A stretch of 64,000 nt of DNA from Poseidonibacter lekithochrous (lineage in GTDB: Bacteria; Campylobacterota; Campylobacteria; Campylobacterales; Arcobacteraceae): contig NZ_JAHKQT010000042.1 of assembly GCF_018861145.1 (NCBI RefSeq), positions 1 through 64,000 of the forward strand. Reading direction: 5' to 3'. The translations under genes and the position numbers were made by a program. This document shows positions 59,375 to 64,000 of this stretch, piece by piece; positions within the stretch are counted from its first letter, which is position 1, and each line of letters opens with the position of its first letter. The notes under the pieces were generated by a model. That model was not told where the DNA came from and made no database searches. It worked only from the letters and a program-made list of their open reading frames with translations.

Positions 59375-59388
59375 CTTAGTTACTTATT
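59359..59388. terminator. Hairpin spanning both convergent stop codons
   Basis: A perfect 11-bp stem AATAAGTAACT/AGTTACTTATT (59359-59369 with 59378-59388) with an eight-base loop. It includes the stop of the EI24-like gene (59372-59374) and that of the response regulator (59384). No clear T-run on either side, so termination is likely but unproven. Confidence 0.5.
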
Positions 59389-60070
59389 CTCTAATTAATC
59401 TATAACCCGTTCCTTGAATGTTTTTCAAAGATTTTTCAGGTAGTTTTTTTCTAAAATTTTTTATAAATAATCTCATTGCATTTGGTGTCATTACTGAGTC
59501 TTCATCCCAAATAAGACTTTCCATCTCTTCATAAGTAATTATTCTATTTTTCGTGATTAGTTGCTTTAAAAATAGGGCTTCTTTTTTTGTTAAATCAAAC
59601 TCTTCTTCATTATTTGAGATTATAGATTTACTAAAGTCAAATAACCATTTTTCAGTAAGAGCATAAATTTTATTATCGTCATAACTTTTAATAAATGCTT
59701 CTAATGCAGTCATTAATTTATCATGAGTAATTGGCTTAACAATATATTTAATTAAGTATAATTCTGTTGCTTGCAGCATATAATCTAAATCAGTGTATGC
59801 CGAAGTTATTATGATTCTTGTTTTTGAATCAGATTTCCTAATTTTCCTAATTAAATCAAGACCTGTTTCCTCTCCCATTTGAATATCAGTAATTATTAAA
59901 TCAGGTTTGTTTTGTACATATTTTAAATAAGCATCTTGAGCATTTACAGCGGTGTAAGTTTCTTTAAAATAATGTTCTAAAATCTCACTTATATTTTCTC
60001 TTATACCTGCTTCATCTTCTACATATAATACTCTAAATGCATTGAGTTTATTAGTTATAGTTTCTTTCAT
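59384..60070 (-). CDS. OmpR/PhoB-type response regulator
   Basis: A 228-residue regulator. The receiver domain (residues 10-125) has the acidic pair EDEA, phospho-acceptor Asp in LIITDIQMGEETG, Thr/Ser in IITSAY and Lys in YIVKPIT. The C-terminal winged-helix DNA-binding domain (TKKEALFLKQLITKNRIITY, then AMRLFIKNFRKKLPEKSLKN and IQGTGYRLI) is of the Trans_reg_C kind. It is divergent from a histidine kinase gene at 60134, its likely partner, across a 63-base gap filled by a near-palindrome. It is the only response regulator seen in the window. Confidence 0.93.
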   Translation of the reverse strand: MKETITNKLNAFRVLYVEDEAGIRENISEILEHYFKETYTAVNAQDAYLKYVQNKPDLIITDIQMGEETGLDLIRKIRKSDSKTRIIITSAYTDLDYMLQATELYLIKYIVKPITHDKLMTALEAFIKSYDDNKIYALTEKWLFDFSKSIISNNEEEFDLTKKEALFLKQLITKNRIITYEEMESLIWDEDSVMTPNAMRLFIKNFRKKLPEKSLKNIQGTGYRLIRE

Positions 60071-60080
60071 AGAGTATAAT

Positions 60081-60127
60081 CCTTGTTACCTTAATTATGT
60101 TATCATAACATAATTAAGGTAATAAGG
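60081..60127. promoter_or_regulatory. 47-bp near-perfect palindrome between divergent regulator and kinase genes
   Basis: Inner arms of 18 bp pair perfectly (60086-60103 with 60105-60122) around one central base; outer CCTT/AAGG arms (60081-60084 with 60124-60127) pair after one mismatch. The AAGG arms coincide with the ribosome-binding sites of both divergent genes. TATAAT at 60075-60080 could be the kinase -10 box. It may be an operator or a double RNA hairpin hiding the start sites. Confidence 0.65.
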
Positions 60128-60133
60128 AAAAGT

Positions 60134-61693
60134 TTGAAGCTAATAACTGAGAAGAATCTATCTAAAATAATAATCTATATTTTCATTATAATCATGTCTT
60201 CAATGATTTTTATGATTACTTACTTTTATGTAAAAAATACATATGAAAACTTTGAAAATGAGATGAAAATATTTAAAAAAGAGTACTATGAGATAAAGAA
60301 AAAAACACTAAAAAAAGAACTTGATACCGTTATTGATGTTTTTAATTATAATATTACAAAAGACTATATCAATGATAAAGAACAAAAAAATGAAGCGATC
60401 CGATTGCTTAATAATATAAGATTTGAAAAAAATAGAAGTAATTATTTCTTTGTCTACGATATTAAAAATATGAATGGGGGAGATGGTTTTGCGACACTTC
60501 TTGTAAATCCTAATAGACCTGACATAGTCGGAAGTTTAATTTCTACAAACTATGAAGATGATAATGGAAAAAAATTTAGAGAAATCTTTTTAAAAGATAT
60601 TAGAGAAAAAAAAGAATCTTATACTCAATACACATATAAAAAACCGGGAACAACTGAGATAAAACAAAAACTATCATATTTTAAATATTATGAAAATTGG
60701 AATTGGGTTTTAGCAGTTGGAGTATATACGGATGATATTGAAAAAGAAATTTCATTAAAAAGAGAGCTTTTAGAAGCAAGAATTAAAAAACAAGTAGGAC
60801 AAAATGTAGTTTTATTTATCATGTTTTTGTCTCTTGCAATTTTAATATCTATTGTAGTTTCACAAAAGATTGATGAAGTATTAAAAACTTATGAAGAAAA
60901 AGTAAAAGCTAAAACACAGGAGCTTAAAAACTTAAATAAGAGTCTAGAAAATAAAGTCAAAGAAGAGCTTGAAAAAAATAGAGAGAAAGAACAACTCTTA
61001 GTTCAAAAATCAAAGTTTATTGCTCTTGGTGAAATGATATCTAATATCGCACATCAATGGAGGCAACCATTATCTGAATTATCATCAATTTTAATGTATA
61101 TAAAATTTAAGCATAGTATTAATAAATTGGATGATAAAACAATGCAAATAAAAGCAGAAGAAGCTGATAAGGTTTTAGATTATATGTCTCATACAATTGA
61201 TGATTTTAGAAATTTCTTTATGCCTAAAAAAGAAAAAGAAGAGTTTTTCTTATATAAAGCAATTGATTCTGTTATGACTATTGTTTCAAGCTCTTTAAAA
61301 AGTGATAAAATTAATGTTGAAATTAATCTTGATAAAAATACTAAACTTAATACATATCTAAATGAATATGAACAAGTGATATTAAACATACTAAAAAATG
61401 CAAAAGATGCATTAATTGAAAAGAATATTAAAAACCCAAGTATAAAAATAACAGCATATGAAGAATTAGAGTATGTTGTTTTATTTATTGAAGATAATGC
61501 AGGTGGTATCACAGTTGAGCCAAAAGGAAAAATCTTTGAGCCTTATTTTACTACTAAAGATGGTAGTAATGGCACTGGGATTGGTTTATATATGTCAAAA
61601 ATTATTATTGACAAAAATATGAAAGGGAAATTACGAGTACGAAATACAAAGAATGGAGCGAAGTTTGGAATACATGTTCCTAGGTCTTTATAA
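60134..61693 (+). CDS. Cache-domain sensor histidine kinase, HQWRQPL type
   Basis: A 519-residue membrane kinase. TM1 is near residues 10-32 (IIYIFIIIMSSMIFMITYFY). A single periplasmic Cache domain follows (SNYFFVYDIKNMNGGDGFAT, then PNRPDIVGSLIST and YENWNWVLAVGVYTDDIEKE), then TM2 near 226-245, a coiled-coil linker and the kinase with His307 in NIAHQWRQPLS, N-box QVILNILKNAKDAL, DNAGGI, TGIGLYMSKIII. No PAS domain. The start is TTG with AAGG at 60124. It is divergent from an OmpR-type regulator and probably phosphorylates it. Confidence 0.93.
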   Translation: MKLITEKNLSKIIIYIFIIIMSSMIFMITYFYVKNTYENFENEMKIFKKEYYEIKKKTLKKELDTVIDVFNYNITKDYINDKEQKNEAIRLLNNIRFEKNRSNYFFVYDIKNMNGGDGFATLLVNPNRPDIVGSLISTNYEDDNGKKFREIFLKDIREKKESYTQYTYKKPGTTEIKQKLSYFKYYENWNWVLAVGVYTDDIEKEISLKRELLEARIKKQVGQNVVLFIMFLSLAILISIVVSQKIDEVLKTYEEKVKAKTQELKNLNKSLENKVKEELEKNREKEQLLVQKSKFIALGEMISNIAHQWRQPLSELSSILMYIKFKHSINKLDDKTMQIKAEEADKVLDYMSHTIDDFRNFFMPKKEKEEFFLYKAIDSVMTIVSSSLKSDKINVEINLDKNTKLNTYLNEYEQVILNILKNAKDALIEKNIKNPSIKITAYEELEYVVLFIEDNAGGITVEPKGKIFEPYFTTKDGSNGTGIGLYMSKIIIDKNMKGKLRVRNTKNGAKFGIHVPRSL

Positions 61694-62135: not shown

Positions 62136-62152
62136 AAATGATAACCATTATT
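62136..62152. promoter_or_regulatory. Candidate Fur box 1
   Basis: AAATGATAACCATTATT resembles the Fur consensus (GATAATGATAATCATTATC family), about 82 bases upstream of the imelysin start. Together with a second site at 62206 it suggests iron repression. Confidence 0.55.
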
Positions 62153-62205
62153 AATATTAAGTGGCGCTTAAGAATAAAATTACTAGAATGTCACAAATCA
62201 TTTAT

Positions 62206-62219
62206 GATAATAATTATTA
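62206..62219. promoter_or_regulatory. Candidate Fur box 2
   Basis: GATAATAATTATTA contains the perfect 12-bp palindrome TAATAATTATTA (62208-62219), 15 bases before the ATG at 62234. This position would block translation initiation or transcript elongation, as expected for Fur control. Confidence 0.5.
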
Positions 62220-62233
62220 GTATAGGAACTAAA

Positions 62234-63577
62234 ATGTTAAATTTAAAATTAATTACAGTATCAGTTGGTTTAGCTGCTGCTTTATCTTTCTCGGGTTGTG
62301 TTACAAGCTCTGAAAATATGGAAACTACAAAAAAAGTTGAAATGACACAAATATCTCCAATTTTAACTTCATATGCAAAGATTGCAGAAGCAAATTATTC
62401 TGATGCATTAAACGATGCAAAGAAATTACAAATAGCGATTGCAGACTTTACTTCAAATCCTACAGAAAAAACTTTTGCAAATGCAAAAGTTGCTTGGTTA
62501 AATTCAAGAGAATCTTATGGTCAAACTGAGATCTTTAGATTATCAAATGGTCCTATTGATGCTGAAGAAGGTTGGGTTGCTGATACTTATGGTGCACTTG
62601 AAGGACAACTTAACGCTTGGCCTTTAGATGAAAATATGATTGATTATACTATTGATGCAAATGGTGTAAAAACTTCAGGAAATATTATTGATACTATGGG
62701 TACATTTAATCCAGGTGGTGAAGATGCAAGTTCAGTAAATGTTTCAAATATTACAGTTGATGCAATTACAGCATTAAATGAAAATGGTGGCGATGCAAAT
62801 GTAGCAACTGGGTATCATGCTATTGAGTTCTTACTATGGGGACAAGATCAAGACTACTCTAACTTTGTAAAAGATTCAATTACAAATGGTGCAACAACTG
62901 CAGGTCAAAGACCATTAAGTGATTATATCAGCGATAAAAATGCACCTAGAAGAATTGCATTTTTAAAAGCAGCTTCATCAAAAATTGTAAGTGATTTAGA
63001 AACTATTACAAATGCATGGACTAATGATGGATTATATAAAAATGCATTCTTAGGAAAATTAAGTGGTTCAGATGCTTCAAAAAATATTAGTTCAGCTGAT
63101 GCTTTAAAACAAGTTATTGCTGGAATGGGTGTATTTATGAAATCAGAACTTGCAAATGAAAGAATTGCAGTTGCAGTTTTAACTCCAAGTGAAGAAGATG
63201 AGCATTCTTGTTTTTCAGATAATACACACAGGGACATTACTACAAATTATTTAGGTTTTAGAAATGTATTAACTTCGACTTATAATAATGAATCATATGG
63301 TAAGTCGATGCTAGATGCTGTATCTGTAGAAGATAAGAAAAGAATCATTTCTTTAATGAAATCAATTGAAACAAAAATTTCAAGTATTAATAAAGTTGCA
63401 ATGACAAGTGCACACTTTGATTACCAAATTCAACCTGATAATCCTCAATCAAAAGTTATTGTAAAACTTAAAAACGAAATGAGAAAATTAGGTGATGAGA
63501 TGGTTAACGTTGCAAATGCAAATGGAATTTCTTTAACACAAGAAGATGTAACAGACGCTGATGAAACAAAAATCTAA
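62234..63577 (+). CDS. Imelysin-family (M75) iron-regulated lipoprotein
   Basis: A 447-residue exported protein. Start at 62234 (ATG after TAGGAAC), giving a lipoprotein signal (LITVSVGLAAALSFSGC; Cys22). A 32-codon in-frame extension upstream has no signal and crosses the Fur-like sites, so it was rejected. Imelysin features seen are the N-terminal repeat helices (SYAKIAEANYSDALNDAKKL) and the GxHxxE motif in ATGYHAIEFLLWGQDQDYSN. Imelysins are linked to iron uptake and are typically Fur-regulated; proteolytic activity is doubtful. The next gene, a di-haem oxidoreductase, overlaps its end by 17 bases, an arrangement common for this pair. Confidence 0.9.
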   Translation: MLNLKLITVSVGLAAALSFSGCVTSSENMETTKKVEMTQISPILTSYAKIAEANYSDALNDAKKLQIAIADFTSNPTEKTFANAKVAWLNSRESYGQTEIFRLSNGPIDAEEGWVADTYGALEGQLNAWPLDENMIDYTIDANGVKTSGNIIDTMGTFNPGGEDASSVNVSNITVDAITALNENGGDANVATGYHAIEFLLWGQDQDYSNFVKDSITNGATTAGQRPLSDYISDKNAPRRIAFLKAASSKIVSDLETITNAWTNDGLYKNAFLGKLSGSDASKNISSADALKQVIAGMGVFMKSELANERIAVAVLTPSEEDEHSCFSDNTHRDITTNYLGFRNVLTSTYNNESYGKSMLDAVSVEDKKRIISLMKSIETKISSINKVAMTSAHFDYQIQPDNPQSKVIVKLKNEMRKLGDEMVNVANANGISLTQEDVTDADETKI

Positions 63578-64000
63578 TTCATTTTTTAGAATTATTTTAA
63601 ATAAAAGCCTTGTAGTAATATTTGCTACAGGGCTTTTTGTCGTTAATAGTTATGCAGATGATATTTCAAGTATAAAAGACAAATCCCTTCTTTTAAAACC
63701 TATAAAGAACCTAAGTGATGAACAATATGATAAGTTTATATTAGGACGAAGTTTTTTTGTTATTCCCTGGGTTGAAGCACCTAGTGCAACAACTGCTAGA
63801 GATGGATTAGGTCCTTTGTTTAATGCAAATACATGTGTTTCATGTCACCCTTCAAATGGGAGGGGAACTTTATATAATAAAAATATGCAGTTCTCAAGAA
63901 GTTTAATTGCTAAATTATCACTTCCTTCTTCTAGTTTACTAGAACATAAAGAAATATTAAAAACTAGTCCTTTAATAGTTGAACCAACTTACGGTGGACA
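63561..64000 (+). CDS. Di-haem thiol oxidoreductase-like protein (DUF1111), 3' end beyond window
   Basis: A partial gene open to the window edge (146 codons seen). Start ATG at 63561, inside the end of the imelysin gene. It has a signal-like hydrophobic segment (LVVIFATGLFVVNSYA) and then LSDEQYDKFILGRSFFVIPW followed by DGLGPLFNANTCVSCHPSNGRGT, a CxxCH haem-binding site in the context typical of the DUF1111/COG3488 di-haem proteins that accompany imelysin in iron-uptake loci. The remaining haem site would lie beyond 64000. Confidence 0.85.
   Translation, partial: MKQKSNSFFRIILNKSLVVIFATGLFVVNSYADDISSIKDKSLLLKPIKNLSDEQYDKFILGRSFFVIPWVEAPSATTARDGLGPLFNANTCVSCHPSNGRGTLYNKNMQFSRSLIAKLSLPSSSLLEHKEILKTSPLIVEPTYGG

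Follow-up and report, generated by a model that had tools for sequence, protein, structure and literature searches.

Bidirectional promoters of bacteria were reportedly defined by Warman, Grainger and Wade in Nat Microbiol in 2021, and members of the class have mapped divergent 5' ends that lie 7-25 bp apart. The layout described as the commonest among them (PMC10268837) has an 18-bp spacing of the two starts, coinciding -7 and -11 positions, an A at +1 and a T at -18. Bidirectional promoters with the same spacing also appear in PMC12825309, according to which the two directions compete. The sigma70 promoters of C. jejuni are given in PMC3847290 as gnTAnaAT located 4-8 nt upstream of the start and lacking a -35 element. 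Template switching in E. coli makes quasi-palindromes more perfect (PMC7202029), and template switching with compensatory changes has been described in RNA genes (PMC8794818).

Here, we compare these systems with the spacer 60071-60133 of the window, by which we mean the whole 64,000-nucleotide stretch analysed. In agreement with an earlier note on this DNA, the spacer separates a divergent pair of regulator and kinase genes (Table 1). Judged from sequence comparison, its centre is probably a symmetric bidirectional sigma70-type promoter for both genes, whose arms would later have been homogenised by template switching, or an equivalent process, in the lineage of the window species (G000) and G006.

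Table 1. Features in and around the spacer, ordered by window position
Feature	Position	Strand	Basis
Response regulator, OmpR/PhoB type (receiver and winged-helix output), ATG start	59384..60070	-	Pfam PF00072 and PF00486 above cut-off
TATAAT of the earlier note	60075..60080	+	Register shared by the window species and G006 only
Shine-Dalgarno of the regulator, AAGGA	60080..60084	-	Sequence; CCTT block common among relatives
Left-arm block CCTT (sister GAAA), reverse complement of right-arm AAGG	60089..60092 (-15 to -12)	.	Sister comparison
Symmetric core TGTTATCATAACA (TGNTATNATANCA), conserved, an overlapping pair of extended -10 elements	60098..60110	.	Conservation (61/66) and geometry
Predicted extended -10 of the kinase, TGTTATCAT (start about 60113)	60098..60106	+	Sequence; C. 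jejuni sigma70 motif
Predicted extended -10 of the regulator, TGTTATGAT (start about 60095)	60102..60110	-	Sequence; element retained in G010
Shine-Dalgarno of the kinase, AAGGA	60124..60128	+	Sequence
Sensor histidine kinase (sCache_2 sensor, HATPase_c), TTG start	60134..61693	+	Pfam domains

What the earlier note had described as a near-perfect palindrome of 47 bp is present, and its arms are in fact one pair longer. The inverted repeat covers 49 bp (60080-60128), with arms at 60080-60103 and 60105-60128 around a single central nucleotide (C60104); 23 of the 24 arm positions are paired, the sole mismatch being G60085 against T60123. Each outer arm holds an AAGG-type Shine-Dalgarno sequence, just as the same note had placed both ribosome-binding sites within the arms. 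With a dyad score of one per pair and a penalty of 3 per mismatch (spacer 0-6), the palindrome reaches 20 and every other site in the 64-kb window stays below 12; 12 sequences of 64 kb simulated under a first-order Markov model have maxima of 10-14. The palindrome is real and the sole one of such grade in the window.

No further match to the palindrome sequence was found in the genome (2,996,367 bases in 44 contigs), and the half-arm TTACCTTAATTATG, with up to three mismatches allowed, is not enriched in the window (22 copies against 33.3 expected). A repeat family and a regulon site were rejected on the grounds of this single genomic locus and the unenriched half-arm. Near-perfect inverted repeats are also found in terminators and mobile elements, which would speak for placing the palindrome among these. 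Such an origin is extremely improbable, however, since the single-copy site lies between divergent starts and the orthologous spacers of other genera hold the same core. A terminator was rejected as none is called at the palindrome.

The preferred reading, a promoter shared by both genes, starts from the centre of the spacer. There, TATCATA (60101-60107; general form TATSATA) reads TATCAT on the plus strand and TATGAT on the minus strand, with TGN preceding each. Because it can be read as a -10 element on either strand, each time behind a TGN, RNA polymerase could bind it in both orientations and would start either the kinase transcript at about 60113 or the regulator transcript at about 60095. 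Placing +1 seven bases past the last T of each -10 puts the predicted starts (60113 on the plus strand and 60095 on the minus strand) 18 bp apart, with an A at both (A60113 on plus, A at 60095 on minus). The -7 and -11 of one promoter coincide with the -11 and -7 of the other, and -18 is a T on both strands (T60095 on plus, T at 60113 on minus). The sequence holds the whole bidirectional-promoter geometry, that is, -10 elements built of shared bases, coinciding -7/-11 positions, 18-bp start spacing, +1 A, and -18 T. A promoter scan demanding a -35 hexamer did not pick the central sites, which fits with the C. jejuni sigma70 promoters, described without a -35 in PMC3847290.

The relatives compared belong to the Arcobacteraceae, and one of the closest records that bear a name is Poseidonibacter ostreae. 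In 70 of the 104 genomes of the family, the kinase is matched at E <= 1e-120. Spacer rows were built for 69 of these 70 genomes (G056 was left out), to which a second place in G085 and the spacer of G007, reached via its regulator locus, were added to give 71. The conservation counts exclude five dropped rows: G010, whose two genes are separated by 240 bp; G026 and G083, where the stretch examined has no match to the regulator; and the distant G061 and G082 (regulators 45% and 41% identical). This leaves 66 rows aligned on the core. Sixty-one of these 66 orthologous spacers, across 11 genus labels, carry the 12-base core TGNTATNATANC; the likely promoter, a predicted central pair of extended -10 elements, lies inside the palindrome, where the earlier note had also assumed one. 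All 66 rows have G(-5), T(-3), A(-2), T(-1), T(+2), and A(+3), as counted from the centre, and C(+5), T(-6), and A(+6) occur in 62, 61, and 52 of them, respectively. The N of TGN (-4/+4) varies freely and without covariation, being paired in 13 of 54 distinct rows (G000 and G006 left out) against 11.0 in shuffles that ignore relatedness. The bases at the predicted +1 and -18 vary among the relatives: A stands at +9 in 50 and T at -9 in 26 of the 66 rows.

The symmetric core is lacking in the remaining five aligned rows (G041, G042, G043, G085, and the second G085 place), which were aligned by their best partial match; a kinase-direction GNTANNAT can be seen in them by eye, which is weak evidence since the DNA is AT-rich. 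It is also absent from all five dropped rows, with the regulator half kept in G010. In this genome the regulator-side site reads TATTATCATATCA, so that the regulator-direction TGATATGAT is intact and TA stands in place of the kinase-direction TG; a GCTATAAT of its own is found for the kinase. This is one case.

Over the whole genome of the window species, TGNTATNATANCA occurs in 11 copies versus 2 for the reversed control, and over 10 genomes of the genus in 100 versus 68, a modest excess. Six of the 11 copies lie inside open reading frames of at least 70 aa and five outside, two of the latter between divergent starts (the present spacer and that of a short-chain dehydrogenase/DUF2400 pair). 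The related pattern TGNTATAATNNNNNA is not enriched (118 versus 123 in the control). Given this weak motif enrichment, the promoter claim rests on conservation and geometry at this spacer and not on motif rarity. A second symmetric core, TGGTATTATAGCA, was noticed at G000:C5:79215-79227 (L140 1501-1513) between divergent short-chain dehydrogenase and DUF2400 genes, whose starts lie 31 and 27 bp from its centre; it is kept in G006. Four other hits in the genus (G001, G002, G004, and G005) stand in a different sequence context from this second core and look unrelated to it.

Beyond the core, the picture is a different one. Full or near-full arm pairing is found in 2 of the 66 rows only, the window species (23/24) and G006 (24/24); in the other 64 rows, a mean of 7.3 and a maximum of 12 of the 17 outer positions (8-24) are paired. 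In the same covariation test, positions 15 and 19 gave nominal p values of 0.010 and 0.017 (uncorrected, 24 positions) and the rest 0.158 or more. With only two nominal p values among 24 tests, the arms lack convincing covariation outside G000 and G006. The long palindrome is not conserved across the Arcobacteraceae. The earlier note had named a lack of conserved pairing in relatives as one part of what would refute its reading; the pairing is indeed not kept.

Between the regulator's Shine-Dalgarno sequence and the core lies an A-rich block, TTAGAAAA (-14 to -11; window 60090-60093), that is conserved across genera. A is found at -13, -12, and -11 in 55, 56, and 62 of the 66 rows, the block has no obvious promoter role, and it is partly overwritten in the window lineage (G000 and G006).

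These data also bear on the possibility that the palindrome is an operator, through which the response regulator or another dimeric regulator would autoregulate both genes, its arms perfected by selection for tighter binding. Dyads are common as operators, the regulator has a DNA-binding output domain and its gene adjoins the site, the arms were completed by several changes in two species, and the A block (-13 to -11) is conserved although no promoter role is obvious for it. Nevertheless, we consider an operator unlikely. OmpR/PhoB-type regulators usually bind direct repeats, the full pairing is limited to the two spacers named, a second near-copy is absent from the genome, and most of the conserved A block has been overwritten in precisely those two species. 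Moreover, a dimeric operator should have its dyad kept or covarying in relatives; the arms of the other rows do not covary convincingly, and none of the 24 arm positions goes beyond the shuffles once 24 tests are allowed for.

The TATAAT from which the kinase transcript had earlier been thought to start is present on the plus strand, but its role as the kinase -10 is not supported: it stands in that register in 2 of 61 aligned spacers (the window species and G006), versus 61 of 66 for the central pair, and was rejected as not conserved. Its position matters for another idea, in which transcription would enter from outside, for example from this TATAAT, and each mRNA would fold the palindrome over its own start site. 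A transcript from about 60087 indeed folds strongly, with a 16-bp stem at -18.2 kcal/mol versus a shuffle mean of -8.1, but even there the outer AAGGA and the TTG start lie outside the stem. The transcripts predicted from 60113 and 60095 begin with AUUAAGGUAAUAAGGA and AUUAAGGUAACAAGGA, which share 15 of 16 bases. As these starts leave one arm per transcript, neither mRNA can form the hairpin, and their folds are nearly unstructured (-2.2 and -1.3 kcal/mol; shuffled sequences do at least as well). In none of the predicted folds is a Shine-Dalgarno sequence or start codon paired, as it would be in an RNA thermometer or a masking hairpin. Considering also that the pairing is not conserved in relatives, folding of each mRNA over its start is very unlikely; given central starts, the proposal that the mRNAs hide their own start sites fails.

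How, under a shared central promoter, might the long palindrome have come about? As a reference for changes in the arms, we took the majority state of three closely related species that lack the palindrome (G009, G003, and G007). This sister majority pairs 18 of 24 positions and leaves pairs 10, 12, 13, 14, 15, and 17 open, all six of which are closed in both G000 and G006, at a cost of seven changes in the former and six in the latter. Common to both are the block GAAA to CCTT, which closes four pairs, and a T to A change at +17. The pair at +/-10 (T/T in the sister majority) is closed by a left T to A in G000 and by a right T to A in G006, and the seventh change of G000 (C to T at +19) breaks a pair. 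With the same number of substitutions placed at random, the observed pairing was reached 0 times in 400,000 for either species. G000 and G006 are sisters with a bootstrap of 94 on regulator plus kinase DNA and of 64 on the regulator alone, and the palindrome is derived, since more distant members retain the A-rich left block.

As in a template-switch product, the repeat is imperfect in the sister species and the clustered changes are the reverse complement of the opposite arm. This adjacent block copying, together with one mismatch closed oppositely in the two species, suggests homogenisation by template switching. Selection acting on the dyad, or favouring a longer protein site, could arrive at the same closed pairs and the same end state. 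The ancestral spacer would already have been a quasi-palindrome with mirrored leaders, because each gene requires an AAGG site and lies some 30 bp away from the centre. In the lineage of G000 and G006, template switching (or its equivalent) may then have copied the kinase-side block to the regulator side and closed the leftover mismatches. Owing to such homogenisation of the arms, the two predicted mRNAs would now be alike in all but one of their first 16 bases.

A more general proposal, tentative and in our opinion somewhat unlikely, is that symmetric bidirectional promoters perfect themselves. With its shared -10 and mirrored leaders, such a promoter is inherently a quasi-palindrome and therefore prone to template switching, which might repeatedly copy leader onto leader. 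This would equalise divergent 5' leaders (here those of kinase and regulator, in one clade) and supply ready-made long dyads for later use by regulators.

Some observations on the neighbouring genes are worth recording. The kinase start codon in the 66 aligned orthologues is TTG in 55, GTG in eight, and ATG in three; a weak kinase start is kept across the family, perhaps so that the kinase stays below the regulator. The kinase of G006 (C34:18069-19624; L135 and L157) matches as two overlapping pieces with internal stops, pointing to a frameshift or an assembly error. Downstream, window positions 62138-63998 hold genes for an imelysin (Peptidase_M75) and for a di-haem oxidoreductase (DHOR), the latter crossing the window edge.

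If the promoter reading is true, one polymerase site firing one way at a time feeds both kinase and regulator, and their ratio would be set by competition and a weak start codon (TTG in 55 of 66), not by operon order. The spacer would also be a concrete case in which the mechanics of mutation produced a long perfect dyad, a structure that is usually taken for an operator or a hairpin. Hence a word of caution: a striking palindrome in a single genome is not necessarily what selection keeps.

A literature search, at the level of search results, returned no published report of this locus, and the matching papers of one search carried no mention of Poseidonibacter. Among the described systems, acrR/acrAB and soxR/soxS (PMC12825309) are alike in that a regulator gene diverges from its partner over a shared core promoter; here, conservation of the dyad stops at the -10 core, and a role of the regulator at the site is putative. 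With the quasi-palindrome template-switch mutations of PMC7202029 and PMC8794818, the spacer shares an adjacent multi-base copy from the opposite arm that leaves the repeat more perfect. The difference is that the event is inferred from a comparison of species and concerns a promoter instead of a reporter or an RNA gene. With the symmetric bidirectional promoters of PMC10268837 and PMC12825309, it has in common a -10 shared by both strands, coinciding -7/-11 positions, predicted starts 18 bp apart, +1 A, -18 T, and divergent genes. What sets the present case apart is the extended -10 TG in both directions, the two genes being halves of one signalling pair, and a 49-bp symmetry in two species, with promoter activity predicted. 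Most likely, the spacer is a new member of a known promoter kind whose origin is instructive, a shared mirror-symmetric promoter that would start both genes and whose arms appear to have been copied only in two sister species.
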